Below are positions 30,699 through 49,869 of a DNA stretch of 64,000 nt, piece by piece. Every line of letters begins with the position of its first letter. The first letter of the stretch is position 1. The DNA is from Peribacillus asahii (lineage in GTDB: Bacteria; Bacillota; Bacilli; Bacillales; DSM-1321). Under the pieces are notes generated by a model. The model did no database searches and was not told the origin of the DNA. It saw only the letters and a list, made by a program, of their open reading frames with translations. The stretch is taken from the NCBI RefSeq assembly GCF_004006295.1, contig NZ_CP026095.1, positions 2,900,001 to 2,964,000 of the forward strand, read 5' to 3'. Both the position numbers and the translations under genes were made by a program.

Positions 30699-31811
30699 AT
30701 GCTAGAAAGTTTAGATTTCCATTATGACGGAATAAGTTCTAAAGATATGGGGTTAATGAGCGTAAAGTTGGATTCAGGTTTATTTGAAGAAATATTTCTA
30801 CCATCTAGAAATATTAATGAGGTAAAAGTAAAAGGTAATGATAAATCTTATTTTCAAAGCGTAGAGAGGGATAATATTTCCCTCCCCCTTACCTTTCTAA
30901 TGCCTGATGGATATGCAGAGGATCAAGAACGTAAAATTAAACGTTGGTTCAACCAAGACTATTACAAACCTTTTTATTTTGATGATTATCCTCATCGTAT
31001 GTTTTATGTCATGTATAAAGGTGATTCAAGAATTTCTCATAATGGATTAGGGCAGGGTTACTTTACAATTGAATTAGCATCTAATAGTCCATATAGTTAT
31101 AGTCCAGTCTACTCCTCCCCTTTCATTGAAGTGGATGGTGAATATGATTTCGAATTTGAAAATGATGGTGATTTAGATGTATTTCCTGAAATATGGATTA
31201 AAAATAAATCTCAACAAGAGAATATTAAGATACATAATCTAAGTAACGGTATTAAGTTTGAATTCACAGGGAAAGCTGCAACATTAATTGCTAATGAACA
31301 GGCTTTACCAACAACAGATTTAACTAATATTTCTGCCGATGCAAAGTTACTTATCATTATCGACGGAACTAATTATGAGATAAATAAAGCCTCGATACTA
31401 TCTGCAACAGGTGAAAATAAAAATATTACACACTTAATCAATCTAATCAATACTGCTATCGGTACGAGTGGATTTGCAGAAAATGATGGAACAGGTAGAA
31501 TTAAAATAGCTTCTTTCAGTAAAGGATTAGACTCAATAGTTACTGTCATTCCACTTGGTTCCTCTATAATTGGATTAGATTCTGCTTTTGGTTTTACCGG
31601 AAATGCATCCACTAGAGGTACAGGACTTGCACTTAATGAAACTGTATACATCGACAATGAGAAAAAAGATATTGAGAGTGATCTTCCATTAACGTATAGA
31701 TATGATGATTTCAACGGTGAATATTTGTGTTTAAATCGAGGCATCAATCGTTTACGTATTTTTGGGACTTGTGAAATTCAATTTAGATATCAATTGTCAT
31801 TTTTAATCTAA
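30699..31811 (+). CDS. Distal tail protein (Dit), YomH-like
   Basis: A 370-aa protein 3 nt after the tape measure. The start FHYDGISSKDMGLMSVKLDSG, then PLTFLMPDGYAEDQERKIKRWF and GQGYFTIELASNSPYSYSP, is typical of siphophage Dit proteins, which form the ring joining tail tube and baseplate. It is longer than the usual ~250 aa. The extra middle part (residues ~190-320) looks like an inserted carbohydrate-binding or galectin-like domain, though I cannot name it. A terminator overlaps the stop. Confidence 0.8.
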   Translation: MLESLDFHYDGISSKDMGLMSVKLDSGLFEEIFLPSRNINEVKVKGNDKSYFQSVERDNISLPLTFLMPDGYAEDQERKIKRWFNQDYYKPFYFDDYPHRMFYVMYKGDSRISHNGLGQGYFTIELASNSPYSYSPVYSSPFIEVDGEYDFEFENDGDLDVFPEIWIKNKSQQENIKIHNLSNGIKFEFTGKAATLIANEQALPTTDLTNISADAKLLIIIDGTNYEINKASILSATGENKNITHLINLINTAIGTSGFAENDGTGRIKIASFSKGLDSIVTVIPLGSSIIGLDSAFGFTGNASTRGTGLALNETVYIDNEKKDIESDLPLTYRYDDFNGEYLCLNRGINRLRIFGTCEIQFRYQLSFLI

Positions 31812-31838
31812 GAGAGTCTTAATCGGCTCTCTTTTTAT
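31811..31838 (+). terminator. Terminator after Dit
   Basis: AGAGAGT (31811-31817) pairs with GCTCTCT (31826-31832), then a T run. Confidence 0.75.
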
Positions 31839-31879: not shown

Positions 31880-32035
31880 ATGGTTATTTACAGTCAGAAA
31901 CTAATGGCAAAGTTAGTATTGAAAGGCTTTGTCTTACAAGGAATGGGTAAAAATAGTAATGATAAACATAAAAATGTTTTCTACTTCAAAGATAGTGAAG
32001 AGTTGAGAAAAGCTATGGACGAACTCAAACAATAA
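31880..32035 (+). CDS. Small DUF5659-like protein 1
   Basis: A 51-aa protein, ATG at 31880 after GAGGTGATG. It reads YSQKLMAKLVLKGFVLQGM, then a polar turn with KNVFYFKDSEELRKAMDEL. Near-identical patterns occur at 42806 and 45756, and a weaker one at 48872: a hydrophobic helix with L.GF.L, then N.FYF.[DE]S..L. The conserved Tyr/Phe pair and the constant length point to one small folded domain, resembling DUF5659. Function is unknown. A nuclease gene starts 89 nt after its stop, behind a terminator. Confidence 0.75.
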   Translation: MVIYSQKLMAKLVLKGFVLQGMGKNSNDKHKNVFYFKDSEELRKAMDELKQ

Positions 32036-32061
32036 ATAATTAAATATATTTTCGAATACAA

Positions 32062-32090
32062 GGCTACCGATTATTCGGTGGTCTTTTTAT
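32062..32090 (+). terminator. Terminator between DUF5659-like gene 1 and nuclease
   Basis: GGCTACCGA pairs with TCGGTGGTC, followed by TTTTTATT. The same kind of hairpin stands before the nucleases at 43077, 46022 and 49922. Confidence 0.75.
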
Positions 32091-32124
32091 TGTCTAATTT
32101 TATAACAAATGGAGGAATGGAAAG

Positions 32125-33255
32125 ATGGAATATCGAGGAATTAAATTAGCTGACAGTGTTAAATTACACATGAAAAATGGAGATTTTAATAAAAAGATTA
32201 AAAATGGACTAGACACATTCATTGACAAATTAGAAGAAAATAACCATGAAGCATTAAGTGAATATATTGGTACTCATGAACTTATATTAATTAATTTTTC
32301 ATGTTTCCATGAACCGCACTGGATATCACCATCTAACTATAAAAAAGGAAGAGGCTGTCCGAAATGTTCAGGTAAAAATTTAGAACAAGCTAAAGAAAAT
32401 TTAATTTTGATGACAAAACAAAATGGACATGAGTTATTAACTGAATATATAAATGCAAAAACAAAAGTATTAATAGATTTCAAATGTGGACATGATCCTC
32501 ATGAAATTTACCCATATAGTTATAAAAATGGTGAAAGATGTCCAAAATGTGCAGGATTATGTCCGATACAAGCGAAAGAAAGTTTAATAGCATTAATCGA
32601 ATCAAATGGTCACGAATGGGTTGATGGCGAATATATAAACGCAAAAACAAAAGTAAAAATTGATTTTAAGTGCGGACATATTCCACACGAAATCACGCCA
32701 TATAGTTATAGAATCGGTCATGGTTGTCCTAAATGTAACGGAAAGTGTCCTGAACAAGCAAAAGAAGAATTAATCAATTTAGTTAGTTTTAATGGTCATG
32801 AATTACTGAGTGACTATGTAAATAATAAAACTAAGATACTAATAGATTTTAAATGTGGGCACAAACCTAATTGGTCAAAACCATCTGATTATAAAAAAGG
32901 GATTAGATGCCCTCTATGTTCAGAATCAAAAGGTGAAAAACAAATTAGAAAATGGTTAGAAGAAAATAACATGCACTTTGAGTCACAAAAAGAATTTGAT
33001 GGTTTAGTTGGAACTGGTGGAGGATTACTTTCTTATGATTTTTATTTACCTGATTATAATTTATTGATTGAATATCAAGGACAGTATCATGACGGGACAG
33101 TGAGAAATCAAACTGAAGAAGAGTTTAAGAAACAACAAGAACATGACAGACGCAAAAGAGAATATACTGAAAAGAATAACATTAATATTCTAGAAATATG
33201 GTATTGGGATTACGACAAAGTTGAGGAAATGCTTAAAAGTAAATTAAATATATAA
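32125..33255 (+). CDS. Repeat zinc-ribbon nuclease (type B), likely free-standing homing endonuclease
   Basis: A 376-aa protein, start behind GGAGGAATGGAAAG. It has about four repeats of ~60 residues, each ending with a pair like GCPKCSGKN (CPKC, CPLC). The pattern resembles DUF4379/DUF723-type treble-clef zinc repeats. The C-terminal nuclease part starts GEKQIRKWLEENNMHFE and has YDFYLPDYNLLIEYQGQYHD, then INILEIWYWDYDKVEEML, a Vsr/PD-(D/E)xK-like core. It shares this plan with the genes at 43077 and 46022. It sits between the Dit gene and the large baseplate gene. Target and activity are unknown. Confidence 0.7.
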   Translation: MEYRGIKLADSVKLHMKNGDFNKKIKNGLDTFIDKLEENNHEALSEYIGTHELILINFSCFHEPHWISPSNYKKGRGCPKCSGKNLEQAKENLILMTKQNGHELLTEYINAKTKVLIDFKCGHDPHEIYPYSYKNGERCPKCAGLCPIQAKESLIALIESNGHEWVDGEYINAKTKVKIDFKCGHIPHEITPYSYRIGHGCPKCNGKCPEQAKEELINLVSFNGHELLSDYVNNKTKILIDFKCGHKPNWSKPSDYKKGIRCPLCSESKGEKQIRKWLEENNMHFESQKEFDGLVGTGGGLLSYDFYLPDYNLLIEYQGQYHDGTVRNQTEEEFKKQQEHDRRKREYTEKNNINILEIWYWDYDKVEEMLKSKLNI

Positions 33256-33276
33256 TAATGAAAGGAGGATAAAAAT

Positions 33277-36200
33277 TTGAGATTAGGAACAATAGACTTA
33301 TCGTTAAAACCTCAAAAACCTAAGTTATCCATTTGCAAACCGAACAGAGTAAAAATTGGAGAATTAACAGAAGCGTATAATATTAAACATGATGTTTTTT
33401 TAGGAAAAGTAAGCGAACTAAGTTTTACTATTCCTTATCTTGTAGAGGATAAACATGAGTTAGTTGGAAATCCAAATATAGACAAGTTAAAAGATAGATA
33501 CTTAATTAAACTAGAATTAGGTAATTTAATCGAATGGTACATAATTAACGATGTAACTGATAGTTCAGATGAAACCAAAGATGATAAAAATGTACACTGT
33601 TATTCGTTAGCATGGCAACTCAATGACAAATTAATCAGGGGACTAGAAGAAACGTCTGTAAATGCAACTAGTATACTTAATACAGCATTATTGGGTAGCA
33701 CATGGGGAATCGGTTATATAGATAGTGACTTTGATATTCGCTTCCGATCATTTGAAGTATCTGAATCTACCGTGCTGGACTTTATTTTTCAAGTGGCGGA
33801 TACATTCGCTACAGTAGTTGAATTCAATACAGTTAATCGTTCAGTTAGCTTAAAGAAAGAAGAAAGTATTGGTACAAATAAAGGATTAAGACTTTCATAT
33901 GGAAAATATCTTCAAACATTAAGCAGACAATCTAATTCAGATGAAATGGTTACTCGTTTTCATGTGTTTGGCAATGAGAATCTAAGTATACAGAATTTAA
34001 ATATGACAGGTACTACCTTTCTTGAAAATTTCTCATACTTCTTGTACCCTTTCAAAATGGATGAAAACGAAAATATTATTAGTCATTCCTATTATATGTC
34101 AGATAACTTATGTAAGGCACAGATTAAGTATCAGGATTTAATTGTAGCAAGAAAGCCTACATTCAAGAGCTACTTGACGCAATTAGAACAACACCAAACC
34201 ACCCTTTTCACAAAAGAAACGGAAATGACAACTTTACAAAATGAGTTAAATATCATTGAAGATAAAATTTATATTGCTAAAGGTATGGAAGAAGATACTT
34301 CTACTTTAGATGCTCAAAAAACAACTAAAAATAATGAGATCGCCAATAAGCAGACTGAGATTAATAATGTAAAAGCTCAAATTACTACTGTAAACAATAA
34401 TATTTCTGCATTGAGAGCTGAAATAGCTGTTGAAAATAACTTTACAGTAGATGAGATTAAAGAGCGTAACGATTTCATTATTGAAAAAACTTGGCAAGAT
34501 GATAACTTTATTGATGAGCAAGATTTATATGATGAAGCCATTAGACGCTTTGAGGAACTGAAAGCACCTAAGACTACATTTAACATTGATATCATTAATT
34601 TTCTAAATGTCATTGAGGAGCAGCGTAATTGGAATAAGCTATCTATTGGTGATACAGTAACGATTAATTACGAGCTATTGGGTGTAAATATCACAGCTAA
34701 AATTATAGAAATTCATTTTGATTATGAATCAGACAATATCAGTTTAACTATTTCAAACACTGCTGATATTTTAGATGAGGCTACAAAATTAGCCAAGAAA
34801 ATCTATGACTCCTACTCCACTTCTACCTCTCTAGATATGTCTAAGTATAAATGGAATGAAAGTGCAAAAAAGATGGGAGAAGTTAATGAAATTATAAACT
34901 CTGAGTGGGATGCTACGAAAAGAGAAATATCCGCAGGGGTTAATAATTCGATTAGCATTTCAGGTAGAGGTATCGTAATTACAAATCCAGATGACCCGTT
35001 AAAACAGTTAATTGCTCAATCAGGAGTTTTAGCTTTAACTATGGATGGTGGCAACACTTGGAAGACTGCAATAAAACCTGACAAAATTGTAGCCGAAGTG
35101 GTAATGGGAAAACTGATTACAGGAGTAAATTTAGTAATTGAGAATCAATCTGGAACTTACACTATAGATGGAAATGGGTTCAATATCACTCGTTCAGATG
35201 ACAAAGTTAAAATCGGAATTAATGTTTCGGATGGAATTAAAATACAAGCAAAAGATGTCTATGGTCAATGGAAAGATAAATTTTACGCTGATACAAATGG
35301 TAATTTAACCTTCTCAGGTACTCTCTCTGGTGCTGACGGTACGTTTTCAGGTACAGTGTCCGCAGGTAAAATTATTGGTGGTACGATGGAAGCTACTGAT
35401 ATCACGGGTGGAAGTATCAATATTGGTAACGGTAATTTCACTGTGAATTCATCAGGGGAAATGGTAGCTAAAAGTGGTGAGTTTAGTGGAACGATTATTG
35501 GTTCTATAATTAAATCTAGTGATAAAAATACCAGTCTAACTATAAATGCTGGAAGTATGAAAGTAGAAAGCTCGTTAGGAGCTTATGTAACCGTAAGTCC
35601 AAATGGGATTGTAGGATATGACAACCAAGGTGCTCAAAAATACAGCATGGATGCTAATCTAGTCACATCCACAGCATTAGCTACCGTCAATAAAAACGTT
35701 TATTTGGGAACGTTACAAGGTGGAGAAGTTCGGGTCGTTGACGCATTTGGATTACCTAGTGACGGTGCTGTCGGTAGTTATTCATACCGAAATTTACGAT
35801 GTCGAGATGTTATTTCTCACGGTAATATCGAAGCAGAGTATATAGCTTCTAAAGGTGCGCTTATCGCTGGTGGAGATTTAGTTGTAACGGGGGATATCTT
35901 TGCAAATCAAGGTGCTGTAGCTACTCAAACATGGGTTCAACAACAAGGATACTCTACTGGTATTTCAAGCAGTCCTGTTTTTAACAGTGTAACTGCTGAT
36001 ATTTTCTATGGTCGTGAGGGTGGTAGTTTAGCTATGGGTTGGGATGGTCAACAATTTTTTCAATCTACTACTATCTACAACCGAACGTACAGCTCTGATG
36101 CAAATATATACATTACTTCTTTTGGTACACTAGGTCGATCCACTTCAGCTTCTAAATATAAGTTAAACATTGAAGAGTATAATGTATCTAAATCTAAAAA

Positions 36201-36555
36201 TATCTTAGATTTAACTCCCAAAACGTGGTTCGATAAAACAGCTACAGAACAATATGCAGAATATTTAACGAAAATAAGTCCTGTAGATATCGAAGGGAAT
36301 CCAGTGGAACCGCAAGAAGTTCCTGAAATGATAGATATTCCATACATGGAAACCCATACAGGTTTAATTGCGGAAGATGTAGAGGCTGTTGGATTGAGTG
36401 AGTTTGTTACATATGGCGCACCTGATGAAAACGGAAATCGTGAAGTGGAAGGATTGGAGTACAGTCGATTATGGGTACTACTCATCCCCTTAGTTAAAGA
36501 GCAGCAAACAAAAATTGAGGAATTAGAACAAAGACTTATAGCTTTAGAAGGATAA
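33277..36555 (+). CDS. Tail/baseplate protein with S74 autochaperone (YomG-like)
   Basis: A 1,092-aa protein read from TTG behind AAAGGAGG. The N-terminal ~350 residues resemble a tail-associated Gp27/Tal-type hub (SELSFTIPYLVED; ATVVEFNT). A coil region (TLQNELNIIEDKIYIAKGME) and beta-rich shaft repeats follow (GTFSGTVSAGKIIGGTMEATDITGG). The last ~140 residues match the intramolecular chaperone of peptidase family S74 (TSASKYKLNIEEY, then GLIAEDVEAVGL and EYSRLWVLLIPLVKEQQ). The S74 part trimerises the shaft and then cuts itself off at a conserved Ser. It lies 22 nt after the nuclease gene. Confidence 0.82.
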   Translation: MRLGTIDLSLKPQKPKLSICKPNRVKIGELTEAYNIKHDVFLGKVSELSFTIPYLVEDKHELVGNPNIDKLKDRYLIKLELGNLIEWYIINDVTDSSDETKDDKNVHCYSLAWQLNDKLIRGLEETSVNATSILNTALLGSTWGIGYIDSDFDIRFRSFEVSESTVLDFIFQVADTFATVVEFNTVNRSVSLKKEESIGTNKGLRLSYGKYLQTLSRQSNSDEMVTRFHVFGNENLSIQNLNMTGTTFLENFSYFLYPFKMDENENIISHSYYMSDNLCKAQIKYQDLIVARKPTFKSYLTQLEQHQTTLFTKETEMTTLQNELNIIEDKIYIAKGMEEDTSTLDAQKTTKNNEIANKQTEINNVKAQITTVNNNISALRAEIAVENNFTVDEIKERNDFIIEKTWQDDNFIDEQDLYDEAIRRFEELKAPKTTFNIDIINFLNVIEEQRNWNKLSIGDTVTINYELLGVNITAKIIEIHFDYESDNISLTISNTADILDEATKLAKKIYDSYSTSTSLDMSKYKWNESAKKMGEVNEIINSEWDATKREISAGVNNSISISGRGIVITNPDDPLKQLIAQSGVLALTMDGGNTWKTAIKPDKIVAEVVMGKLITGVNLVIENQSGTYTIDGNGFNITRSDDKVKIGINVSDGIKIQAKDVYGQWKDKFYADTNGNLTFSGTLSGADGTFSGTVSAGKIIGGTMEATDITGGSINIGNGNFTVNSSGEMVAKSGEFSGTIIGSIIKSSDKNTSLTINAGSMKVESSLGAYVTVSPNGIVGYDNQGAQKYSMDANLVTSTALATVNKNVYLGTLQGGEVRVVDAFGLPSDGAVGSYSYRNLRCRDVISHGNIEAEYIASKGALIAGGDLVVTGDIFANQGAVATQTWVQQQGYSTGISSSPVFNSVTADIFYGREGGSLAMGWDGQQFFQSTTIYNRTYSSDANIYITSFGTLGRSTSASKYKLNIEEYNVSKSKNILDLTPKTWFDKTATEQYAEYLTKISPVDIEGNPVEPQEVPEMIDIPYMETHTGLIAEDVEAVGLSEFVTYGAPDENGNREVEGLEYSRLWVLLIPLVKEQQTKIEELEQRLIALEG

Positions 36556-36573
36556 ACAAGGAGGAAACATTAA

Positions 36574-36729
36574 ATGGATATTCAAGTTAAAGATTTTAAT
36601 AAGATTGTAGAGCAATATGACAGAATGGTAGCTCAATTAAATCGAGAGAATATTTTTCTCAAAGCAGTGATTGAAGAGTTACAAGCTAACTCCCCTACTA
36701 CTGGTGAGCAAGTAGAATTAAGTAAATAA
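36574..36729 (+). CDS. Small coiled-coil phage protein
   Basis: A 51-aa protein with the ATG 9 nt after AAGGAGGAAAC, 18 nt after the baseplate gene. It reads KDFNKIVEQYDRMVAQLNRE then FLKAVIEELQA, a short two-helix coil. Similar small proteins accompany tail-fibre genes in Bacillus phages. Function is unknown. Confidence 0.65.
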   Translation: MDIQVKDFNKIVEQYDRMVAQLNRENIFLKAVIEELQANSPTTGEQVELSK

Positions 36730-36763
36730 AATTAAATAAAAGTTGAATTTTAACGGAAAATGG

Positions 36764-36814
36764 ACGCTCAAAAAGCCTTATTTTACAGGGTTTTTCGAGT
36801 GTTTATTTTTTTAT
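36764..36814 (+). terminator. Strong terminator before the spike gene
   Basis: The stem runs from ACGCTCAAAAAGCC (36764-36777) to GGGTTTTTCGAGTGT (36788-36802), followed by a T run. Confidence 0.85.
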
Positions 36815-36836
36815 TTTTAAATAAGGAGGTTATTTA

Positions 36837-39800
36837 ATGACGTTCGATTATGATGATCAAATAATTATATCTCGCAGACAAGGAAATTCAGAGTCTCCTT
36901 ATGTGCATATAGACGAATCCTTGGTTATTGATCCGCATGGTAAAGTTATACTAACAGAAATGCCCTCTAAGTTTAATGGAGTTTCAGTTAGTGGAGACAA
37001 TAAGACTTGGTTCGAAATTAAAAAAGGTGTTCCAAAGGCTAATGAATATTTGGTAGATTACAAGGGTGGGAAAGCTGTAACCTTTAATATCTCCAATGCA
37101 GGTAAACAATTAGCATTTTCCTATGAGGGTATGGGTCAACATTTTATCCCAAGTTCGATGGTTTATACAGAACAGGAAAATGGAACTGTCGTTGAAACAC
37201 TTAAAGGTTTAGTAGATAAATCCAAAGCAGACTTAGCAACAGATAGACAATCAGTTCAAGATAAATTACAAGAAGCTACCGACAAAATTGATGAAACTGA
37301 AGTAGCTAGACAAACTGTAATTCAAACTAATACTGATGTTAATGCAGAAGAAGAAATTCGTGTTTCAAGTGAAAATACTCGTATCTCTACTGAAAATCAG
37401 AGAGGTTTAGACGAAACAGAGAGAAAAAATTCAGAATCAACAAGAAAAGTAAATGAGCTAGAAAGAATTAACGCTGAGAATATTCGCATAAGCAATGAGT
37501 CATCAAGGGTTACTGCCGAGAATGAACGTGAAGAAAATGAATCTCAGAGAATTCTTGATGAAGCAGATAGAGAAGCAACAGAAGATGTCCGAATCTCAAA
37601 CGAGAATACAAGGATTTCAAGTGAGAATTCAAGGGTTAGTGCTGAAGCAGTAAGAGAATCACAAGAAACAGCGAGACAGCAATTTGCTGCAACTGCTCTT
37701 ACAGACTTGAACACTCTTACAAACAATACTAAATTCATTGAACCTTATAACACTACGACTACATATAAACCAAATAATATTGTCAGTCTTAACGGGAATT
37801 CTTACATCTGTAAGAAAACGAGTACAAATAACACTCCTCCAGATCCTCTAATCGCAACGGGAAATGAGTTTTGGGGGTTGCTAAGTCGCAAAGGTGCGGA
37901 TTCGAACGGAAATGTAGTTGTACATAAAGATAAATTCATCGCAACTGAAGGTCAAACAATTTTCACATTATCATATCCGTATGACCAATTCCAAAATAGA
38001 ACAACTGTAACAGTTGGTGGAGTTCCACAAAGAACACCTGATAATTATGAAGAAGCGAATTCTAATACAATTATATTGAATGACCCTGTATCTGCTGGAA
38101 CGGTTGTTGAAGTAAAATATTTCAGCGAAGCCCTCCCCCTAGCTTCGGATATTCAAACTGTTGTTGATAATCACACAGATGAAATTAACAAATTTAATAA
38201 TCAATCTATCTACACTGAAGATTTCATTGCAGTTGAAGGTCAAACTGTATTCACTTTGCAAACTATATATGACCAACTACAAGACAAGGTTGAAGTTTAT
38301 GTAGATGGTGTACCTCAAGATTCAGGTGATAACTTTACTGAAAGTGCAAATAACCAGATCACATTAAGCGAGGGTGTGCCGTTAGGGACGGAAGTTAAAG
38401 TAAGATATTTCGGTAAACGACTCCCTATTGGAACTGATGTGGAAGTTGCATTGAATACTCATGCGGAAACTTTGGGTAATCATACAACAGAGTTGAATAG
38501 TCATGCAAGTGATATTACTTCTCTTACGTCCCAGTTGGCGGAAACTATTCAACAAATCAAAAACATTGTGACTGTCGATGTGAAATCCTTTGGAGCAAAA
38601 GGTGACGGGGTAACAGATGACAGTGTAGCGATTCAAAATGCTATAGCAACACTTCCAAAAACAGGTGGTAAACTACTATTCCCACCTGGGGTTTATCTAC
38701 ATGGGGATGGAGTAACGACAGGATATTCGTACACACCTAATCCGAGTTACCCTAACAGACCACTTGAAGATGCAGAACATCCTGTTGACATAGGTAGAGA
38801 TATACGATTTATCTTCAAAGATTATGATAATCTGACTATTTCGGGATACGGTGCGACCATACAATCACATGATAACAACGGGGAGTGTAGAAATAACTCC
38901 ATATTAACATTTGAAAACTGTACTAATTTGCGTATCGAAGGTTTAAAAATTGATGGCAGGTCGCAATTTAGAGAACCTGTACTCGGTGATTACAACACAG
39001 GAAAAGGGTACGCTGATAGATCAAACATTTATATTAAGTTTGGGGAAAATATCACCTTGCAAGACGTTGAGAGTAACTATTCGATGATGGATGGTGTTTT
39101 CTTGTTTGGAAATGAAACAACATCACTGTCTAATGTTAGAGTGGTGAACTGTAATTGTTATTATAATTACAGACAAGGTATGACTATATCCAGTGTGAAT
39201 GATTGCGTTGTGGATGGCGGAAATTATTCGTTTACAGGAGTATTAAGAGGCACTCTACCAAAAGCAGGAATTGACGTAGAGGCAGATGCACATGAAAGTT
39301 ATAATGTAGCTATTAAAAATGCGAAATTTGACAGTAATGCTGTTAGCGGACTTGCTTTGTCTTTTAGAGGTAGTAATATAACTGTAGAGCAGTGTACGTT
39401 TGTAAATAAAGGTGTTACAACGGTTAGAGATGATAGTTGTGTAAATAACGTCGTAAAAGGGAATGTCTTTATAAACTGCGGACTAGGATTTTCACAGTAC
39501 GGTGTAAAGTATTATGATAACTTATTTAAGTTTGATACTGAGGGGTTGTCAACTAATTATCATTTTGATTTTGGAGTAAACACAGATAAAGTAGATGGGA
39601 AACTGGATGTCTTTGAACGAAATACGATTCTAGTTGATTTAGAGGATGTACCTCTCGGCTCTACAGGAGCGTTGGGTTGCTTTAAGCTCACAGGAACAAG
39701 AGTTATGTCATTCAAAAATAACATTATAAAAAACAGTTATGTGAATCAGTCAGGTCTAGCTTACGCTATTTGGTTATCTGGTGTTGGATTGAACTTAGAA

Positions 39801-40466
39801 AACAACCAAATGATATTTGATTACGCTGGCACGAATATTAGTTCTAGCAACCAAAGGACGAACATTGTTTCTCCAGTGTACAAAGATAACAATGTAACAG
39901 GATTCACGAGAGACAGCACAGATACAAAATATTCTAATCAATACGGTGCATCAAGTGACTTTAAGTTTTCTAAATCTTTCGGTATCGCTAATCAAGTCAA
40001 TAAATTACACAAGATAAACGCTAATTATAGTGGAACTTTAAAAGTATCTGCTAATACAGGAGATTTTGAACTTTATGAACTGAAATACAATTCAAGCGCA
40101 GGAACATTGACTGTAAATATGACACAACAAAACGGTACATCAGCATTCTGTAATGTTTATAAAAGTGCAACTTATCTCTATATTGAACCATTATTATCTA
40201 GTTTGGTTGTAGAGATAGATTTTTCTTTACCGAGTGCGACATCTCGCAGAAGTCCATTAGACGTAACCTTGGATTTAGATACTGTCACAGATAAAGCAAC
40301 ACTCCTACTTCTAGCTAAACCATTATTAAGTAAGTCCGTAACATCAAAAGAAGCAATAACACAAACTCCACCATACAAAGGATTTACAACTTTTGATGAA
40401 TCGAGAAATAAAAATATAACATGGACTGGAACTGGTTGGGTAGACCAAATGGGTACAGTTGTTTAA
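36837..40466 (+). CDS. Receptor-binding tail spike: BppU base and pectate-lyase-fold domain
   Basis: A 1,209-aa protein. The first ~150 residues resemble BppU, which anchors receptor-binding proteins to the baseplate. Residues ~150-290 are a regular triplet-rich coil with repeated ENTRIS, ESTRK and ENSRVS units. Two similar beta domains follow (EGQTIFTLSYPYDQFQNRTTV and EGQTVFTLQTIYDQLQDKVEV). From about residue 580 comes the pectate-lyase-3 start VDVKSFGAKGDGVTDDSVAI and a parallel beta helix. Such spikes bind and often cut surface polysaccharide. Catalytic residues were not assigned. Confidence 0.82.
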   Translation: MTFDYDDQIIISRRQGNSESPYVHIDESLVIDPHGKVILTEMPSKFNGVSVSGDNKTWFEIKKGVPKANEYLVDYKGGKAVTFNISNAGKQLAFSYEGMGQHFIPSSMVYTEQENGTVVETLKGLVDKSKADLATDRQSVQDKLQEATDKIDETEVARQTVIQTNTDVNAEEEIRVSSENTRISTENQRGLDETERKNSESTRKVNELERINAENIRISNESSRVTAENEREENESQRILDEADREATEDVRISNENTRISSENSRVSAEAVRESQETARQQFAATALTDLNTLTNNTKFIEPYNTTTTYKPNNIVSLNGNSYICKKTSTNNTPPDPLIATGNEFWGLLSRKGADSNGNVVVHKDKFIATEGQTIFTLSYPYDQFQNRTTVTVGGVPQRTPDNYEEANSNTIILNDPVSAGTVVEVKYFSEALPLASDIQTVVDNHTDEINKFNNQSIYTEDFIAVEGQTVFTLQTIYDQLQDKVEVYVDGVPQDSGDNFTESANNQITLSEGVPLGTEVKVRYFGKRLPIGTDVEVALNTHAETLGNHTTELNSHASDITSLTSQLAETIQQIKNIVTVDVKSFGAKGDGVTDDSVAIQNAIATLPKTGGKLLFPPGVYLHGDGVTTGYSYTPNPSYPNRPLEDAEHPVDIGRDIRFIFKDYDNLTISGYGATIQSHDNNGECRNNSILTFENCTNLRIEGLKIDGRSQFREPVLGDYNTGKGYADRSNIYIKFGENITLQDVESNYSMMDGVFLFGNETTSLSNVRVVNCNCYYNYRQGMTISSVNDCVVDGGNYSFTGVLRGTLPKAGIDVEADAHESYNVAIKNAKFDSNAVSGLALSFRGSNITVEQCTFVNKGVTTVRDDSCVNNVVKGNVFINCGLGFSQYGVKYYDNLFKFDTEGLSTNYHFDFGVNTDKVDGKLDVFERNTILVDLEDVPLGSTGALGCFKLTGTRVMSFKNNIIKNSYVNQSGLAYAIWLSGVGLNLENNQMIFDYAGTNISSSNQRTNIVSPVYKDNNVTGFTRDSTDTKYSNQYGASSDFKFSKSFGIANQVNKLHKINANYSGTLKVSANTGDFELYELKYNSSAGTLTVNMTQQNGTSAFCNVYKSATYLYIEPLLSSLVVEIDFSLPSATSRRSPLDVTLDLDTVTDKATLLLLAKPLLSKSVTSKEAITQTPPYKGFTTFDESRNKNITWTGTGWVDQMGTVV

Positions 40467-40559
40467 CACACAGTCGGAACAAACTGTACGATAATAACTA
40501 AATTAATGTAAATACATAAAAATCGACAATCGAATAAAAGAACAATTTTATCAGAAAAG

Positions 40560-40612
40560 ATGGCGTTCAAAACCTAGTAAAATCAAGGGTTTTGAGCGTC
40601 ATATTTTTATTA
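40560..40612 (+). terminator. Strong terminator after the first spike gene
   Basis: ATGGCGTTCAAAACC (40560-40574) pairs over 15 bp with GGTTTTGAGCGTCAT (40588-40602), allowing G-U pairs, and is followed by ATTTTTATT. Confidence 0.85.
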
Positions 40613-40663
40613 TTTAGGAATAAATAAACATTTTTCTACTATAATTAAAAAGGAGGAAAAAAT

Positions 40664-42070
40664 ATGGGGTTAAAGAGAATCAAACGGCACATGATTGACC
40701 AAGAGTTTGTGCAACAGGTAGATGACAGTGTTTCAACTTTGAATAATCATGCAACAAAGCTAAATGATCATGATGACGAATTGGCAGCAGTAAGCACCCA
40801 GTTGGCGGAAACCGAGATTCAAATCACTAATAAAACAGCAGGTAGAGTAAATTTAAAAGAGTATGAGAATCTGATTCCAAATAAAGCGATGATTCCTGAC
40901 CCTGTAAATTGGGACTGGGAAATCCCGATGCAACAAGCCGTGAATGATGCTGATGACATTTTTATACCCGACGGAATCTTCTTTATGTCCAGTTTCCCTG
41001 TATTAACAACGAGAAAACATATACACGGTGCTGGTTCTAGCTTATTCCACTCTACATCTAAGACTGTTTTGCGTTTTCCAGCTGGTGTTAAAGGTATTAC
41101 GACGCAAACAAATGATTCTGCCTTTACTGTTATTGAAAACCTTTGTCTCCATTCGCTGTCTACAACGTTAGGAACAGATGATGGCATTGTTCTTGGTTCA
41201 AATCGAGTAACGATTCGCAACGTACTTGTACAAGGTTTTGGTAGACATGGTATAAATATTGATTCAACGAATGGGAATGTAAATTTGTGCAATTTGGAAA
41301 ATGTGCGCTCGTACCAAAATAAAGGAAGAGGGTTTAGCTTATCGGGTGGAGTTGATAATAATGTTTTAACACTCCATAAATGTGACGCAACGGGTAATGG
41401 TGATTGGGGCTTTTATAATACTGCACGACATAGCATATTATTTAATTGCCATGCGTCTCAAAATACTGGTGGAGGGTTTTATGATAACGGTATATCAAAT
41501 GTTTACTATATGCCATATGTTGAAGAAGGTGTTGGGAATTTTTCAACAATAGATGCTTCATCTTCTTACGGTATATGGATAGCAACTTTTTACGCTGCAA
41601 TATACCCAAGCGTTCACGCAAACGCTAGAACTTCATGGTTTATTCAGCACCAATCGGGATTCACAAGGAAATTAACAATTCACGACAACGGAGGACCATC
41701 TTCGGGGAAAAATTACGAGTTTGATAACGGGGTTTTTAACGCAGGAGCTTTTCGTTTAAGAAACGTAACCGACAATAAGAATATCTTTGATGTAAACTCA
41801 ACTCTAACGAGGTTCATGTTTCATTTACCTATTGGATTTACGCCAGTAACAGCAAGTGCAACCAATAATACGTCATTTCTTGATAGTGCGGATAATATTT
41901 TAAAACATCGAGATAACGCAGGACGTACAGGGAATATGTCCCGTTTCGTAGCAGTGCCAGCTTCAGCAACCGCAACAGGGACTCCTGGTGACTGGTCGGC
42001 TGATGCGAATTATATGTACGTGTGTCATACTGCGAATACATGGAAACGAGTTGCAATCGCTACTTGGTAA
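40664..42070 (+). CDS. Second beta-helix tail spike
   Basis: A 468-aa protein, ATG behind AAAGGAGG. The first ~50 residues are an anchor coil (MIDQEFVQQVDDSVSTLNNH, ending TQLAETE). The body has parallel beta-helix repeats (NRVTIRNVLVQGFGRHGINI; GFSLSGGVDNNVLTLHKCDATGNGDWGFYN). The C-terminal cap ends WSADANYMYVCHTANTWKRVAI, found in many fibre tips. The anchor shares the QLAET joint with the spikes at 36837 and 47125. A surface-binding or depolymerase role is likely. Confidence 0.75.
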   Translation: MGLKRIKRHMIDQEFVQQVDDSVSTLNNHATKLNDHDDELAAVSTQLAETEIQITNKTAGRVNLKEYENLIPNKAMIPDPVNWDWEIPMQQAVNDADDIFIPDGIFFMSSFPVLTTRKHIHGAGSSLFHSTSKTVLRFPAGVKGITTQTNDSAFTVIENLCLHSLSTTLGTDDGIVLGSNRVTIRNVLVQGFGRHGINIDSTNGNVNLCNLENVRSYQNKGRGFSLSGGVDNNVLTLHKCDATGNGDWGFYNTARHSILFNCHASQNTGGGFYDNGISNVYYMPYVEEGVGNFSTIDASSSYGIWIATFYAAIYPSVHANARTSWFIQHQSGFTRKLTIHDNGGPSSGKNYEFDNGVFNAGAFRLRNVTDNKNIFDVNSTLTRFMFHLPIGFTPVTASATNNTSFLDSADNILKHRDNAGRTGNMSRFVAVPASATATGTPGDWSADANYMYVCHTANTWKRVAIATW

Positions 42071-42381
42071 CACCCAGTAGGAAGATACTGTGAAGTGAAT
42101 TTAGTGTAACTTTAAATGTATAAACATACAAACTACTGAATAAATATACATTAGCTAATTTCACAATCTCTCCCCTACTCTATTCACCAGTGTTTTCGCT
42201 TATAGAAACTAAAAATATATACATATAATAAAATTGACATTTTAAATGAATAAAATTACATAAAAATAAGACTGCATTCTCAAAGTGGGTAGAGTTGCAG
42301 TCTTATTTAGCTTTACTAAGCCTCTATTATTATATCAAAAATGAGGTGGAAAGACAATAACATTATATAGGAGTGTTTAAT
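42071..42381 (+). other. 311-bp gene-free stretch with terminator
   Basis: It holds a copy of CTCCCCT (42170-42176), two copies of the AATAAAATT intergenic motif (~42229 and 42249) and a terminator: AAGACTGCA (42268-42276) with TGCAGTCTT (42296-42304). A possible weak promoter, TTGACA with TACATA 17 nt on, spans 42236-42264. No gene is seen. Confidence 0.6.
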
Positions 42382-42774
42382 TTGAGTGAGGACTTGAATG
42401 GAAGACTATCTAAACTTGAAGCTAAAGTTGAAAATCATTCTAAACAATTAGATATACAAGCTACTAAAAATGATTTACAAGTTGAAATGAATACTCTACT
42501 TAAAATGCAGATTGAGTCTAATGAGAAACAGAATGTTCAAATGGAGAAATTCGCTGAAACGTTAGATCGAGTTGATGAAAATTTAACTAATTTAAATGTG
42601 AGCCAACAACGCCTGCAAAGTGAAGTTATACAGATAGGAAATCGAGTTGAAGACATCGAGAAGAAAGCAGATGAATCTAAGATTGATTTCGCTAAGTTAT
42701 TTAAGCATATATTATGGACTGGACTACCGACTCTTATAGTAGCTTATTTATTATATAAATTTGGAATAAAATAA
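42382..42774 (+). CDS. XhlA-like coiled-coil membrane protein (lysis-associated)
   Basis: A 130-aa protein from TTG at 42382, 6 nt after AGGAGTG. A long heptad coil (LEAKVENHSKQLDIQATK to VEDIEKKADE) is followed by a single C-terminal membrane segment HILWTGLPTLIVAYLLYKFG. This is the layout of XhlA/BhlA-type phage proteins that work with a holin to release the endolysin or dissipate the membrane potential. It opens the lysis block. Confidence 0.75.
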   Translation: MSEDLNGRLSKLEAKVENHSKQLDIQATKNDLQVEMNTLLKMQIESNEKQNVQMEKFAETLDRVDENLTNLNVSQQRLQSEVIQIGNRVEDIEKKADESKIDFAKLFKHILWTGLPTLIVAYLLYKFGIK

Positions 42775-42805
42775 ACTGGATTAAATTATCAGGAGAATAT
42801 CAAAT

Positions 42806-42985
42806 ATGAAAAAAGAATACATAGTGTTTTCAAATCAGCTTGCAGGTTACTTAATGATGAACAAGTTCCCTTTGAAGCGAATGGGTAAATCAGATAAACA
42901 GGGATCAAATTTAAACATATTCTTTTTTAATGAATCTGAAGATTTACTCAGTAAAGTTGAAGAATTTAAATCAATCAAGAAGTAA
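42806..42985 (+). CDS. Small DUF5659-like protein 2
   Basis: A 59-aa protein, ATG 7 nt after AGGAGAATATC. It starts MKKEYIVFSNQLAGYLMMNK, then FPLKRMGK and NIFFFNESEDLLSKVEEF. It is nearly identical in plan to the copy at 45756 (MKKEYIVFS start in both). The stop lies 91 nt before the start of the nuclease at 43077. Function unknown. Confidence 0.75.
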   Translation: MKKEYIVFSNQLAGYLMMNKFPLKRMGKSDKQGSNLNIFFFNESEDLLSKVEEFKSIKK

Positions 42986-43006
42986 ATTTAATAATTTCAC
43001 GTTGTA

Positions 43007-43036
43007 AGAGGTTGCGATTATCGTAACCTCTTTTTG
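43007..43036 (+). terminator. Terminator between DUF5659-like gene 2 and nuclease
   Basis: AGAGGTTGCGA pairs with TCGTAACCTCT around a 3-nt loop, followed by TTTTTG. Confidence 0.85.
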
Positions 43037-43076
43037 TTTGTCAAATATTTATTATCTAATAGGAGGAATTAGTAAA

Positions 43077-44249
43077 ATGCCAAGAAAGAAAACGCACGAA
43101 GAGTTTGTACAGGAAGTTAAAGAACTGGTTGGTGACGAGTATGCTGTTTTAGAGACTTACAAAAACGCACAGATAAAAATAAAAATAAGACACAATAATG
43201 AATCCTGTAATAATTATGAATGGAATGTTATTCCGAGTGGTTTTGTAAACTCAGGAAGCAGATGTCCCAAGTGTTCAGGTAATATAAAAAAGACTACTGA
43301 GGAATTTAAACAAGAAGTGTTTAAATTAACAGGTAGTGAATATGAAGTTTTAGGAGAGTACATAAACAACAAAACGCCAATTAAAATGAGACATACCTTA
43401 TGTGGTTGTGATGATTGGATGGTAACTCCTGATAATTTCTTGAGAGGTAATAAATGTTATAAGTGTAGTGGTAAAATGAAAAAGAACCACGAAGAGTTTA
43501 AGCAAGAGGTTTATAGTCTCGTTGGTGATGAATACACTGTACTTGGAATATATAAGAATGCCAAAACTAAAGTCAAAATGAAGCACAATATTTGTGGATA
43601 TGATGAGTGGAATGTTATACCTAAGAGTTTTTTATTAAATGGACGCAGATGTCCAAAATGTGCAAATGGCATCCGTAAAGAGAAAAAGACAAAATCTAAT
43701 AGTAAATTTGAACAAGAAGTATTTCGACTGGTTGGAATTGAATATCAAGTTTTAGGTGAATACGTGAGTGCTAAAACTAAAATTACAATAAAACATAATA
43801 AATGTGGATACGACCAATGGGATGTTGCTCCATACAGTTTCTTACAGGGTACGAGATGTCCTAAATGCAACGCCCCTAAAGGCGAAACTTTAATCTCAAA
43901 ATGTTTAGATAATTATAATATCAAATACGTACCTCAGTATAGATTCGATGATTGTAAATATAAAAACACCTTACCATTTGATTTTGCCATATTCAAAGAA
44001 AAAGAATTGTTATTTTTAATTGAATATGATGGTATTCAACATTTTGAACCACAAGAACACTTTGGCGGAGAAGAAGTATTTAAAGTACAGCAATTAAAAG
44101 ATCAAATTAAGAATATGTATTGTACAGACAATAATATACCACTTTATCGTATTCCCTATTGGAAACTTGATGAAATTGAAGATATATTAAATAAAATTAT
44201 ATATAATAAACACACAGAAGTCGATAAGGCTTCTTTTTTAGTTTTATAA
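43077..44249 (+). CDS. Repeat zinc-ribbon nuclease (type B)
   Basis: A 390-aa protein from ATG at 43077 behind AGGAGGAATTAG. Four ~65-residue repeats start with HEEF.QEV..L.GDEY.VL and end with a CPKC pair or variant (one reads CYKC). The nuclease part starts KGETLISKCLDNYNIKYVPQ and has FDFAIFKEKELLFLIEYDGIQHFEP, then IPLYRIPYWKLDEIEDIL. Asp, Glu and His spacing fits a Vsr/DUF559-like nuclease. The gene at 46022 is a close paralogue with one repeat fewer. It stands between the XhlA-like gene and the endolysin. Confidence 0.72.
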   Translation: MPRKKTHEEFVQEVKELVGDEYAVLETYKNAQIKIKIRHNNESCNNYEWNVIPSGFVNSGSRCPKCSGNIKKTTEEFKQEVFKLTGSEYEVLGEYINNKTPIKMRHTLCGCDDWMVTPDNFLRGNKCYKCSGKMKKNHEEFKQEVYSLVGDEYTVLGIYKNAKTKVKMKHNICGYDEWNVIPKSFLLNGRRCPKCANGIRKEKKTKSNSKFEQEVFRLVGIEYQVLGEYVSAKTKITIKHNKCGYDQWDVAPYSFLQGTRCPKCNAPKGETLISKCLDNYNIKYVPQYRFDDCKYKNTLPFDFAIFKEKELLFLIEYDGIQHFEPQEHFGGEEVFKVQQLKDQIKNMYCTDNNIPLYRIPYWKLDEIEDILNKIIYNKHTEVDKASFLVL

Positions 44250-44284
44250 AACATGTAGTGTTTACGAAGAAAGGATGATTAATT

Positions 44285-45091
44285 ATGACTATTGAAATTA
44301 AAAAGAATCTAGTGTCCTCAAGTAAATATAATGTCAAATGTCCCTATTCAATGGCTGCTAAATATATCACAATACATAACACATACAACGATGCTCCTGC
44401 TGCAAATGAAGTTAAATACATGAATAGTAATAACAATAGCGTTTCATTCCACTATGCTGTAGATGATAAAGAGGTTATTCAAGCTGTTCCTGAGAATCGT
44501 AATGCTTGGCATTGTGGAGATGGATCAGGTTCAAATTCAGGTAATCGTACATCCATTGGAGTTGAAATTTGTTACTCTAAATCAGGTGGAGAACGTTACA
44601 GAAAGGCTGAGGATTTAGCGATTAAGTTTATTGCTCAATTACTTAAAGAACGTAGTTGGGGAATTGAAAGAGTTAGAAAGCATCAAGATTGGAGTGGTAA
44701 ATTCTGTCCTCATCGTATCTTAGATGAAGGTAGATGGAGTAGTTTCAAAAAGGAAATTGAGAAAGAGTTAGATAGTTTAAATGGTGAAGTAGTAAAGAAA
44801 TCATACTCCCCTACTCCAACTAAAGTAAAATCTGCTACAACATCTAAGAGTGATTCAACTGACATTAAACTTCCTAATGGGGTCTATAAAAAAGGTGACA
44901 AAGATAATGCAGTTAAACAAATCCAAGAAGCTTTAAATGAACTGAATTTTAAAGTTGGAAAAGCAGACGGGATTTACGGATCACAAACTCAAGATGCTGT
45001 GTTAAGATTTCAAAAAATGTGCGGAATCAAACCTTATGATGGTATTTATGGAGATAAGACACGCAAGGAAATGTTAGAACAACTCAAATAA
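44285..45091 (+). CDS. N-acetylmuramoyl-L-alanine amidase endolysin (BlyA/XlyA-like)
   Basis: A 268-aa endolysin. The amidase-2 domain (residues ~1-160) has YITIHNTYND, a conserved zinc His, HQDWSGKFCPHRI with the remaining zinc ligand, and SVSFHYAVDD. A linker rich in Ser and Lys leads to one peptidoglycan-binding domain (residues ~200-265; KQIQEALNELNFKVGKADGI, YGSQTQDAVLRFQ). It cuts the MurNAc-L-Ala bond to lyse the host. It has no signal peptide, so release needs the holin encoded at 45472. Confidence 0.9.
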   Translation: MTIEIKKNLVSSSKYNVKCPYSMAAKYITIHNTYNDAPAANEVKYMNSNNNSVSFHYAVDDKEVIQAVPENRNAWHCGDGSGSNSGNRTSIGVEICYSKSGGERYRKAEDLAIKFIAQLLKERSWGIERVRKHQDWSGKFCPHRILDEGRWSSFKKEIEKELDSLNGEVVKKSYSPTPTKVKSATTSKSDSTDIKLPNGVYKKGDKDNAVKQIQEALNELNFKVGKADGIYGSQTQDAVLRFQKMCGIKPYDGIYGDKTRKEMLEQLK

Positions 45092-45134
45092 AATTACATA
45101 ACAACTAGATTGAAACAGGAGAGGAATTTATATA

Positions 45135-45458
45135 ATGATTACAGCTAGAATCTTAAAAATTACTGATGGTGACACTCTTCAGATTGAAATTCCTAAATTA
45201 TCGCTACGTTTAGATTTTGTCGATGCTTTCGAGACGAAGGGGATTGAGCGTGAGTTGGGATTAAAAGCAAAAGCATGGATGGAACAACAATTATCAGTAG
45301 GTGATGAAATTCAAATTGATCCTAAGCATTTCGATATTTACGGTAGATTAATCGCTACTGTATTTGAAGATGGGGAAAACATCAATGGGAAAATGCTAAA
45401 AGAAGGCGTAGCAGAAGTCTACTCCCCTTCTAATCATAATAACGGAAAATTAGATTAA
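45135..45458 (+). CDS. Thermonuclease-like (SNase) protein
   Basis: A 107-aa protein with the SNase fold: ITDGDTLQI, LRLDFVDAFETKGIERELG (Arg and Glu sites) and IYGRLIATVF (second Arg). It lacks a signal peptide and is short for the family, ~107 against ~140 aa for the mature enzyme, yet keeps the core. It lies between endolysin and holin genes. It may degrade host or competing DNA at lysis. That role is inferred. Confidence 0.8.
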   Translation: MITARILKITDGDTLQIEIPKLSLRLDFVDAFETKGIERELGLKAKAWMEQQLSVGDEIQIDPKHFDIYGRLIATVFEDGENINGKMLKEGVAEVYSPSNHNNGKLD

Positions 45459-45471
45459 GGAGGTGTATATT

Positions 45472-45723
45472 ATGAATATTAACTGGAAAGTTAGGTTCAA
45501 ACAGAAAACTTTCATTGTAGCTTTATTCTCTGCGTTATTGTTAGCAGCACAAGCAGTTGCAAGTTTATTTGGATATGATATTCCTGTTGAGTTTAGCGAC
45601 AAGTTAACTTATTTATTTAATACGGTTTTATCTATATTAGTGTTACTTGGAGTTGTAGTTGACCCCACTGTATCTGGGTTAGGAGATAGTAAAGAGGCAT
45701 TAAAATATACAAAACCTAAATAA
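45472..45723 (+). CDS. Holin, phi-LC3 type (BhlB-like)
   Basis: An 83-aa protein from ATG at 45472, 6 nt after AAGGAGGTG. A short basic start (NINWKVRFKQ) precedes two membrane helices (TFIVALFSALLLAAQAVASL and LFNTVLSILVLLGVVV) and the typical DPTVSGLGDS end of phi-LC3-type holins. It makes the membrane holes that let the amidase reach the wall. It follows SNase and amidase. Confidence 0.88.
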   Translation: MNINWKVRFKQKTFIVALFSALLLAAQAVASLFGYDIPVEFSDKLTYLFNTVLSILVLLGVVVDPTVSGLGDSKEALKYTKPK

Positions 45724-45755
45724 GCGCAGTTATTCCAAAATGGAGGCAACATCAA

Positions 45756-45932
45756 ATGAAAAAAGAATATATAGTTTTTAGTCAACGTTTAGCTGCAACA
45801 CTTATGTTAAAAGGTTTTGTGTTAAAACGAATGGAAAAAACTAATAGAGACAATTCTAATAGAAACGTATTTTACTTTAATGAGTCTAATGATTTATTAA
45901 AAATTGTAGAAGATTATAAAAATATCAAATAA
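45756..45932 (+). CDS. Small DUF5659-like protein 3
   Basis: A 58-aa protein, ATG behind GGAGG. It reads MKKEYIVFSQRLAATLMLKG, FVLKRM and NVFYFNESNDLLKIVEDYK, a close copy of the proteins at 31880 and 42806. The stop lies 89 nt before the nuclease start at 46022. Confidence 0.75.
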   Translation: MKKEYIVFSQRLAATLMLKGFVLKRMEKTNRDNSNRNVFYFNESNDLLKIVEDYKNIK

Positions 45933-45951
45933 TTTAACATTATTAATTTAG

Positions 45952-45980
45952 GACTGTACATTATTGTGCGGTCTTTTTTA
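45952..45980 (+). terminator. Terminator between DUF5659-like gene 3 and nuclease
   Basis: GACTGTACA pairs with TGTGCGGTC (several G-U pairs), followed by TTTTTTATT. Confidence 0.7.
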
Positions 45981-46021
45981 TTTCATCAAATTAACAATCA
46001 CTAAATGGAGGAATGACGGAA

Positions 46022-46972
46022 ATGTCGAAAAAGAAAACACATGTTGAATTTACTAAAGAAGTATACGAATTAGTTGGAGATGAATATGAAGTTTTAAGTG
46101 AATATGTTAAAACACATACTAAAGTAAAATTAAGACATACTGAATGCGAACATGAATATGAAGTAACTCCTGCTAGTTTTTTAACAGGCAGAAGGTGTCC
46201 AAAATGCGCAGGAAGAATAAAAAGAAGTACGGAAGATTATAAAAATATACTTTATGAATTGGTAAAAAATGAATATGAATTAATTGGGGAGTATAAAAAT
46301 AGCTCTACTCATGTCACATTGAAACATGTAATATGTAATAATACATTTGATGTTTTACCTAGCAACTTCTATAAAGGGAAAAGATGCGGTTACTGCTATG
46401 GAAACAAAAAGAAAACAACAGAAGAATTTAAACAAGAAGTGATTAATTTAGTTGGCAATGAATATGAGATTTCAAGTGAATATATAAATACAGATACTAA
46501 AATTAATCTAAAACATAATATTTGTGGACGTGATTATTATGTTAAACCTTATCATTTTTTACAGGGGTCTAGATGTCCGTTTTGCAATGAATCAAAAGGT
46601 GAAAAGAAAATTTCGCAATGGTTGAATGATAATGAGATTAAATATAAATCACAATATAAATTTGAGGATTGTAAAAATATAAATGAATTAAAATTTGATT
46701 TTGCGATTTTTGATTCGGAAAAAAGATTAATATGTGTCATTGAATATGACGGTGAACAGCACTTTAAACCTGTAGATTTTGCAGGAAAAGGCGAAGATTG
46801 GGCTATGGCATCTTTTGAAAAGAATAAGAAACGGGATGAGATCAAAAATACATATTGTATAACTAATAGCATTCCCTTACTTCGCATCCCTTATTGGAGG
46901 TTTGACGACATTGAGGAAATATTAAGTCAATATTTAACAAAAGGTGTTTCAGACTCAGAACAAACTGGATAA
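46022..46972 (+). CDS. Repeat zinc-ribbon nuclease (type B), shorter copy
   Basis: A 316-aa protein, start ATG at 46022 (an ATG at 46013 is too close to GGAGG). It has three ~65-residue repeats (THVEFTKEVYELVGDEYEVL onward) closing with CPKC, CGYC and CPFC pairs. The nuclease part begins GEKKISQWLNDNEIKYKSQY and has LKFDFAIFDSEKRLICVIEYDGEQHF, then IPLLRIPYWRFDDIEEIL. It is a close paralogue of the gene at 43077 with one repeat lost. It follows the holin and a DUF5659-like gene. Confidence 0.72.
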   Translation: MSKKKTHVEFTKEVYELVGDEYEVLSEYVKTHTKVKLRHTECEHEYEVTPASFLTGRRCPKCAGRIKRSTEDYKNILYELVKNEYELIGEYKNSSTHVTLKHVICNNTFDVLPSNFYKGKRCGYCYGNKKKTTEEFKQEVINLVGNEYEISSEYINTDTKINLKHNICGRDYYVKPYHFLQGSRCPFCNESKGEKKISQWLNDNEIKYKSQYKFEDCKNINELKFDFAIFDSEKRLICVIEYDGEQHFKPVDFAGKGEDWAMASFEKNKKRDEIKNTYCITNSIPLLRIPYWRFDDIEEILSQYLTKGVSDSEQTG

Positions 46973-48871: not shown

Positions 48872-49069
48872 ATGGAATTAAAAAATTACAAAAAAGAGGA
48901 TTTGTTTTACTGCTATTCGATTCATCTTTTTCATTTTCTTAAAGCAAATGGGTTTTATTATTTGTTTAAAGATAAAAATCCTAGCAGTGATAAATTCTAT
49001 TGGGTGTTTGAACGTACACCTAAGTTTTTAGAGGCGTTGACTATGTATACAGACAATAAGAACAAGTAA
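48872..49069 (+). CDS. Divergent DUF5659-like small protein
   Basis: A 65-aa protein, ATG behind AAGGAGTGATTAG. It reads YKKEDLFYCYSIHLFHFLKA then NGFYYLF and KFYWVFERTPKFLEAL. It shares the helix, the NGFYY/GFVL turn and the FYF-like strand of the three small proteins above, but more loosely. A wHTH-like gene follows, not a nuclease. Function unknown. Confidence 0.6.
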   Translation: MELKNYKKEDLFYCYSIHLFHFLKANGFYYLFKDKNPSSDKFYWVFERTPKFLEALTMYTDNKNK

Positions 49070-49704: not shown

Positions 49705-49869
49705 CGCTTCCCTCTACCCAAGACAGTCTAATAGAATAAGAAGCAGAAATACATAAAAACAGCTAGAAACGTTGATATGACAAGCTTAGTTGGACTTTTT
49801 ACTATCACATATAGTGTAATCTGTCTCCCATTCAGTGGGAATCATAAATAAATTTATATGATTTTACAA

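Follow-up and report, generated by a model that had tools for sequence, protein, structure and literature searches.

What holds a small gene of one family, a transcription terminator and a nuclease gene together, three times over, in a single prophage? The question arises from 64,000 nucleotides (nt) of Peribacillus asahii DNA (contig NZ_CP026095.1, positions 2,900,001 to 2,964,000; the window, below, means this whole stretch), in which a DUF5659 gene, an intrinsic terminator and a gene for a zinc-repeat nuclease follow one another in that order at three places (cassettes 1 to 3, Table 1). Free-standing homing endonucleases are usually regarded as one-gene selfish elements. We put the probability at roughly 55% that each block is a free-standing modular homing cassette, composed of a DUF5659 gene, a terminator, a leader that carries a strong ribosome-binding site, and a nuclease of exchangeable class. 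What the analysis shows is an order that recurs and is enriched, a leader shared between nucleases, partners of differing nuclease class, the fold of the nuclease and, in five relatives, an empty cassette 1 site.

In cassettes 1, 2 and 3 the stop codon of the small gene and the ATG of the nuclease are separated by 89, 91 and 89 nt, as the initial annotation of this DNA had read, and PF18903 matches, terminators and CxxC-bearing nucleases bear out the three cassettes that it described. Their settings do differ, as it held: neighbouring genes place cassette 1 between Dit and a Tal-like tail gene, cassette 2 between an XhlA-like gene (our own reading) and the endolysin, and cassette 3 behind the holin. 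Among the records listed, the Tal-like gene of the prophage is 35-40 percent identical to its counterparts in large phages, SPbeta-like ones included, that infect Bacillus or related bacteria. All four small proteins of the window score above the Pfam gathering cut-off for PF18903 (23.6 bits). The fourth has no nuclease directly behind it, again as annotated; it belongs to a separate PHROG (21297 vs 31546), and a homing endonuclease comes one gene later.

The same order recurs in unrelated phages. Among 20 distinct viral contigs, drawn from searches started with DUF5659 alone, a homing endonuclease was the first gene downstream of a close DUF5659 relative in 11, compared with 3 of the 122 other genes in those loci (p=6e-9); inspection by eye showed at least one uncounted HNH-like gene in the latter set (7928-8518 of L016; L numbers denote loci), and with five rather than three the difference holds (p=7e-8). 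Partner proteins are among the seeds of this count; a repeat with an EDxHD profile built on 119 database proteins, which may include L023's own, gave 9/20 against 1/122 (p=3e-8). L019 was left out as a sequence duplicate of L020, L014 and L017 are one contig, as are L016, L024 and L035, and in one listing of DUF5659 loci downstream genes were examined for plus-strand loci only. The partners are mostly EDxHD nucleases, joined by GIY-YIG (L016), DUF7487/phrog_12131 (L025), phrog_681 (L027) and phrog_4538 (L020) nucleases. In L122 two pairs flank an amidase-like gene (our own reading), the gut phage record MT835469 also has a pair, and the lists of DUF5659 and nuclease homologues hold three contigs of at least 5 kb of matching size (8580, 49686 and 101415), against an expectation of about 0.02. 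The spacing, about 90 nt in the window's three cassettes, is not constant; across 23 pairs it ranges from 13 to 156 nt.

A clean terminator lies in the gap of 13 of these 23 pairs, compared with 0/24 gaps between DUF5659 and another kind of gene (p=8e-6) and 28/249 control gene pairs (p=1.3e-6); the 23 were chosen for small-gene-first order and include the related L093 and L095 as well as L124 and L142, called DUF5659-like by eye (13/21 without the latter two). The loci for this count, as for the tree and the distance correlation below, were hand-picked from those fetched. The terminator overlaps the DUF5659 stop codon in L022, L025, L139 and L158. Between 30600 and 50000 in the window there are 12 terminator-like sites against a mean of 7.0 (standard deviation 2.9) in shuffles, and the cassette terminators are three of the four with the longest stems, the fourth being the one that precedes the nuclease at 49922.

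Similarity extends into the leader. Over the 70 nt upstream of the start codon, ten nucleases hand-picked for a long gap or a terminator (a choice that omits L022 and L025-L028) resemble one another with a mean local score of 31.0, compared with 15.3 to 31 control leaders of the window (permutation p=5e-5). Cassette 1 scores 60 against the GIY-YIG gene and 43 against the phrog_12131 gene at 49922. Among 90 nuclease starts, DUF5659-type pairs (counting L124) hold six of the eight top leader scores (at least 27), setting aside L074, whose score of 140 is a self-match.

Judged by sequence, the cassette nucleases are EDxHD / Vsr-like homing endonucleases, a kind already known. Their CxxC repeats, with DUF4379/CapR matches (below Pfam cut-offs in cassette 1), appear to supply the modular DNA-binding region of such enzymes. 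The C-terminal domain of the cassette 3 nuclease, the only one modelled, has the predicted fold of Vsr and of the EDxHD homing endonuclease I-Bth0305I, and E194, D226, E241, H247, D272 and K275, candidate active-site residues, are invariant across 36 sequences. The cassettes lie outside introns: at gathering scores, Rfam (a search that does not cover inteins) gives group I introns only at 13514-13775, 22576-22814 and 23010-23227, and none above threshold at 30-51 kb. The defence families of PADLOC-DB gave zero matches for the four DUF5659 proteins, and the nucleases of cassette 1 and at 49922 match candidate families weakly.

The initial annotation had proposed looking at phages that lack a cassette, and this was done at the Dit-Tal site of cassette 1. 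In 5/5 related phages, opened out of 74 records matching the Tal-like gene, neither the DUF5659 gene nor the nuclease is present: the gene upstream of the Tal-like gene, whose annotation is tail protein, hydrolase or hypothetical depending on the record, ends at most 18 nt from it, and the stretch before the Tal-like gene has no DUF5659 and no EDxHD match. Both cassette 1 genes are therefore extra at this site here.

In a tree built from 46 DUF5659 proteins (omitting the misframed L156; the proteins are short and many forks unresolved), none of the window cassettes groups with its neighbours; each joins a cassette from another phage, namely cassette 1 with L016 (98/81), cassette 2 with L023 (97/85) and cassette 3 with L020 (86/82). 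The three therefore look separately acquired, and would be separate lineages rather than the co-duplicated copies once suggested. The label 'followed by a nuclease' requires 10 changes on this tree against 15.7 in shuffles (0/500 as low). Within related cassettes, identity is 74 percent for DUF5659 vs 48 for the nuclease and 79 vs 44; in the third pair it is reversed, 57 vs 66.

The small protein of cassette 3 is modelled by AlphaFold2 as strand-helix-strand-strand-helix (mean predicted local distance difference test score, pLDDT, 94), and no confident match to the model was found among solved structures. In six DUF5659 pairs the non-synonymous divergence (dN) is 0.15-0.38, whereas the synonymous divergence (dS) could be computed for just two of the six and is 2.3-2.7 there; the low dN relative to dS implies that the protein is constrained by purifying selection. 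Where no nuclease follows, the next gene is SF2 helicase-like (L030, L038), primase-like (L052, L152), of phrog_36702 (L015, L034) or unassigned, and some nuclease-free members sit amid structural genes. These gene neighbours suggest that DUF5659 is tied to DNA-acting enzymes. The Pfam entry (PF18903) states no function and a full-text literature search found no paper using the term DUF5659; the recurrent pair would provide a first context for the family.

Table 1. Features of the three cassettes and of the fourth DUF5659 locus, in window coordinates (aa, amino acids).
Feature	Position	Strand	Basis and remarks
Terminator-like hairpin, gap between Dit gene and cassette 1	31810..31833	+	Terminator scan
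Cassette 1 DUF5659 gene, 51 aa	31880..32035	+	PF18903 32.4 bits, phrog_31546; in-frame start upstream at 31871 possible
Cassette 1 intrinsic terminator	32060..32085	+	11 pairs, 5 G-C
Cassette 1 leader with Shine-Dalgarno sequence	32086..32124	+	Like leaders of GIY-YIG (L016) and phrog_12131 (49922) nucleases
Cassette 1 EDxHD / Vsr-like homing endonuclease, 376 aa, zinc-finger repeats	32125..33255	+	Family matches, CxxC repeats
Cassette 2 DUF5659 gene, 59 aa	42806..42985	+	PF18903 25.4 bits, phrog_31546
Cassette 2 intrinsic terminator	43006..43032	+	12 pairs, 5 G-C
Cassette 2 leader	43033..43076	+	Leader comparison
Cassette 2 EDxHD / Vsr-like homing endonuclease, 390 aa	43077..44249	+	Pfam/PHROG matches, CxxC repeats
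Terminator-like hairpin within 3' end of cassette 2 nuclease gene	44216..44234	+	Terminator scan
Cassette 3 DUF5659 gene, 58 aa	45756..45932	+	PF18903 42.0 bits, phrog_31546; AlphaFold2 model
Cassette 3 intrinsic terminator	45950..45975	+	11 pairs, 4 G-C
Cassette 3 leader	45976..46021	+	Leader comparison
Cassette 3 EDxHD / Vsr-like homing endonuclease, 316 aa	46022..46972	+	Three zinc repeats; catalytic domain residues 190-310
Fourth DUF5659 gene, 65 aa, 'FYCYS' type	48872..49069	+	PF18903 38.3 bits, phrog_21297; next gene no nuclease
Gene with weak helix-turn-helix matches, separating fourth DUF5659 gene from next homing endonuclease	49114..49704	+	
Intrinsic terminator preceding fourth nuclease; terminator and leader cassette-1-like	49868..49893	+	Terminator scan, leader comparison
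Homing endonuclease of phrog_12131 kind, 442 aa, no DUF5659 gene directly upstream	49922..51250	+	PHROG match

Several further genes of the family were seen. 'FYCYS'-type DUF5659 genes stand alone amid structural or terminase genes, with no nuclease directly behind them, at L117 5501-5692, L118 2984-3175 and L160 2974-3198; that of L118 lies about 230 nt downstream of a nuclease. In L036 (1475-3857) a DUF5659 gene, a replication-like gene and a homing endonuclease follow one another in the order seen at 48872-51250 of the window. The L023 gene (2814-2993) has ATC at the position of its relatives' ATG start. The same genome holds a fifth DUF5659-type gene, of 'FFCYS' type (L065), outside the window on the minus strand (G000:C1:2871223-2871387), and is followed by a replication-like gene (our own reading) and not by a nuclease.

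Elsewhere in the window, 14373-15734 (phrog_5104/12131) and 19000-20697 (phrog_1271) are further homing-endonuclease-like genes with no DUF5659 gene seen directly upstream. The first of the introns given above lies at the 3' end of a tail-tube-looking gene and the other two within a gene read as tape measure, whose reading frames are also split by an unmatched insert-like stretch at about 23467-23715. In the lysis block a staphylococcal-nuclease-like gene (PF00565, 45135-45458) has the endolysin on one side and the holin on the other. The N-terminus of a RecQ-like helicase breaks off at 51889-52341 on the minus strand and may mark the prophage end; scanning the window and the preceding 34 kb for motifs did not reveal the remainder of the gene.

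As a modular homing cassette, each block would most likely home as a unit. The nuclease would cut cassette-free genomes during mixed infection, and repair would copy the entire block, DUF5659 gene included, into a new gap amid late genes. The terminator would stop the upstream transcript behind the small gene, and the nuclease would then be expressed only by weak read-through or from its own promoter; such low expression would limit ectopic cutting and permit residence in essential late operons. DUF5659 might be a nucleic-acid-associated helper or regulator, kept since it aids or restrains the element's DNA-acting enzyme, which is the least certain step. A bolder version, possible though short of probable, makes DUF5659 a dedicated, nuclease-independent homing partner that forms, with the terminator-leader module, a portable control and helper platform for swapped nucleases of unrelated fold. 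A recurrent partner gene, terminator and leader, kept through a change of nuclease class, would explain how such elements settle in essential late phage operons, and, if true, free-standing homing would often be a multi-part mobile system and not a single selfish gene.

A number of observations weigh against the homing cassette. A DUF5659 gene lies directly upstream of the nuclease in 6/80 nuclease loci with a first profile and 7/80 with a wider one, three of them related; the first finds 7 genes in 6 loci, all directly upstream, and the wider one, which contains some of the sequences it recovered, picks up L125 as well, plus three DUF5659-like genes in other positions. PF18903 does not appear among the Pfam domains recorded for the 120 nucleases listed, out of 2285, and a recognised nuclease is the next gene in 0/11 bacterial-genome DUF5659 loci (judged by eye; 11 of 12, L041 left out). 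Viewed from the nucleases, then, the two genes are mostly apart, which the initial annotation had named as grounds for dropping the cassette; viewed from the close viral DUF5659 genes, the pair is what 11 of the 20 contigs contain. Its mobile two-gene unit stands insofar as the pair recurs at varied positions in unrelated phages and both genes are missing from the empty site, and fails as a rule for the nucleases. Against a fixed pair, too, distant DUF5659 genes often precede replication-type genes, and 'CYS'-type DUF5659 genes are also found downstream of a nuclease (L017, L118). A clean terminator is missing in 10/23 pairs, L017's being imperfect, and the ends of the insertion are unreadable base by base, the relatives being too distant for reading the joints. 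Terminators are hardly commoner before nuclease starts generally (15/90) than before other genes (35/309), so that the terminator seems to belong with the DUF5659 pair and not with the nuclease as such. Three more of these points would suit a different and, in our view, rather unlikely account, in which ordinary DUF5659 genes and their terminators are a harmless spot where homing endonucleases inserted independently, with no functional tie: terminator and leader occur without DUF5659 at 49922; L015 has a DUF5659 gene and an imperfect terminator without a nuclease; and the correlation between DUF5659 and catalytic-domain distances is slight (Mantel r=0.15, p=0.13, 18 pairs; on subsets r=0.29, p=0.07, 13 pairs, and r=0.37, p=0.06, 12 pairs). 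Nuclease-free DUF5659 genes near replication-type and structural genes fit it as well. It does not predict that both genes are missing from the cassette 1 site in 5/5 related phages, nor that unrelated nucleases share a leader right up to the start codon, so that not just anything lies behind the terminator; and the absence of clean terminators from DUF5659-other pairs means that they are no standing feature of DUF5659 genes. For these reasons the module is favoured over independent insertion, without the matter being settled.

The weak correlation of distances also suggests that partners have been exchanged, and exchangeable partners make a partner-specific inhibitor less likely. We therefore regard as improbable an antitoxin-like or immunity-like DUF5659 that is made first and limits the nuclease, or represses its leader, sparing phage or host. 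It would agree with the small gene coming first in 23 pairs (chosen for that order), with the purifying selection on DUF5659 and with the insulation of the nuclease by a terminator in 13 of them, but swaps across unrelated nuclease classes and weak co-divergence are hard to reconcile with a specific inhibitor, the family also precedes helicase-like and primase-like genes, most such nucleases lack DUF5659, and the 'CYS'-type genes can follow a nuclease. Mere coincidence or hitch-hiking of three pairs in a nuclease-rich phage might be invoked, as six genes of the window are homing-endonuclease-like and three stretches match group I introns; it is contradicted by the counts in unrelated contigs, where the order recurs with shared leaders and terminators, and we give it almost no credence.

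How the homing cassette relates to known systems depends on which of its parts is compared. I-Bth0305I is intron-associated. Review PMC3943268 treats it among intron-encoded enzymes. Compared with EDxHD / Vsr-like homing endonucleases of this sort (I-Bth0305I; phrog_559, phrog_9084), the genes here are free-standing and have a DUF5659 gene and terminator in front. The view that no system of this form had been described thus gives way for the nucleases, which are of a known kind, and holds for the pair, no description of which was seen in the titles and abstract openings of the homing endonuclease papers listed. The cassettes resemble the free-standing seg and mob homing endonucleases of T4-like phages in being intergenic and outside introns. 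For these, part of PMC2988022 reports terminators within or near mobE, segF and segD, together with hairpins upstream of segB, mobE and seg43(25), and the parting of the late transcript from the nuclease gene is described or proposed for such terminators and hairpins of T4 as well. Unlike the seg and mob genes as that part of the account describes them, the cassettes have a small partner gene of one family and a leader common to several nuclease classes. With group I introns that carry homing endonucleases they share the combination of a selfish nuclease and a companion element; unlike in those introns, the companion in the window cassettes is a protein gene with a terminator.
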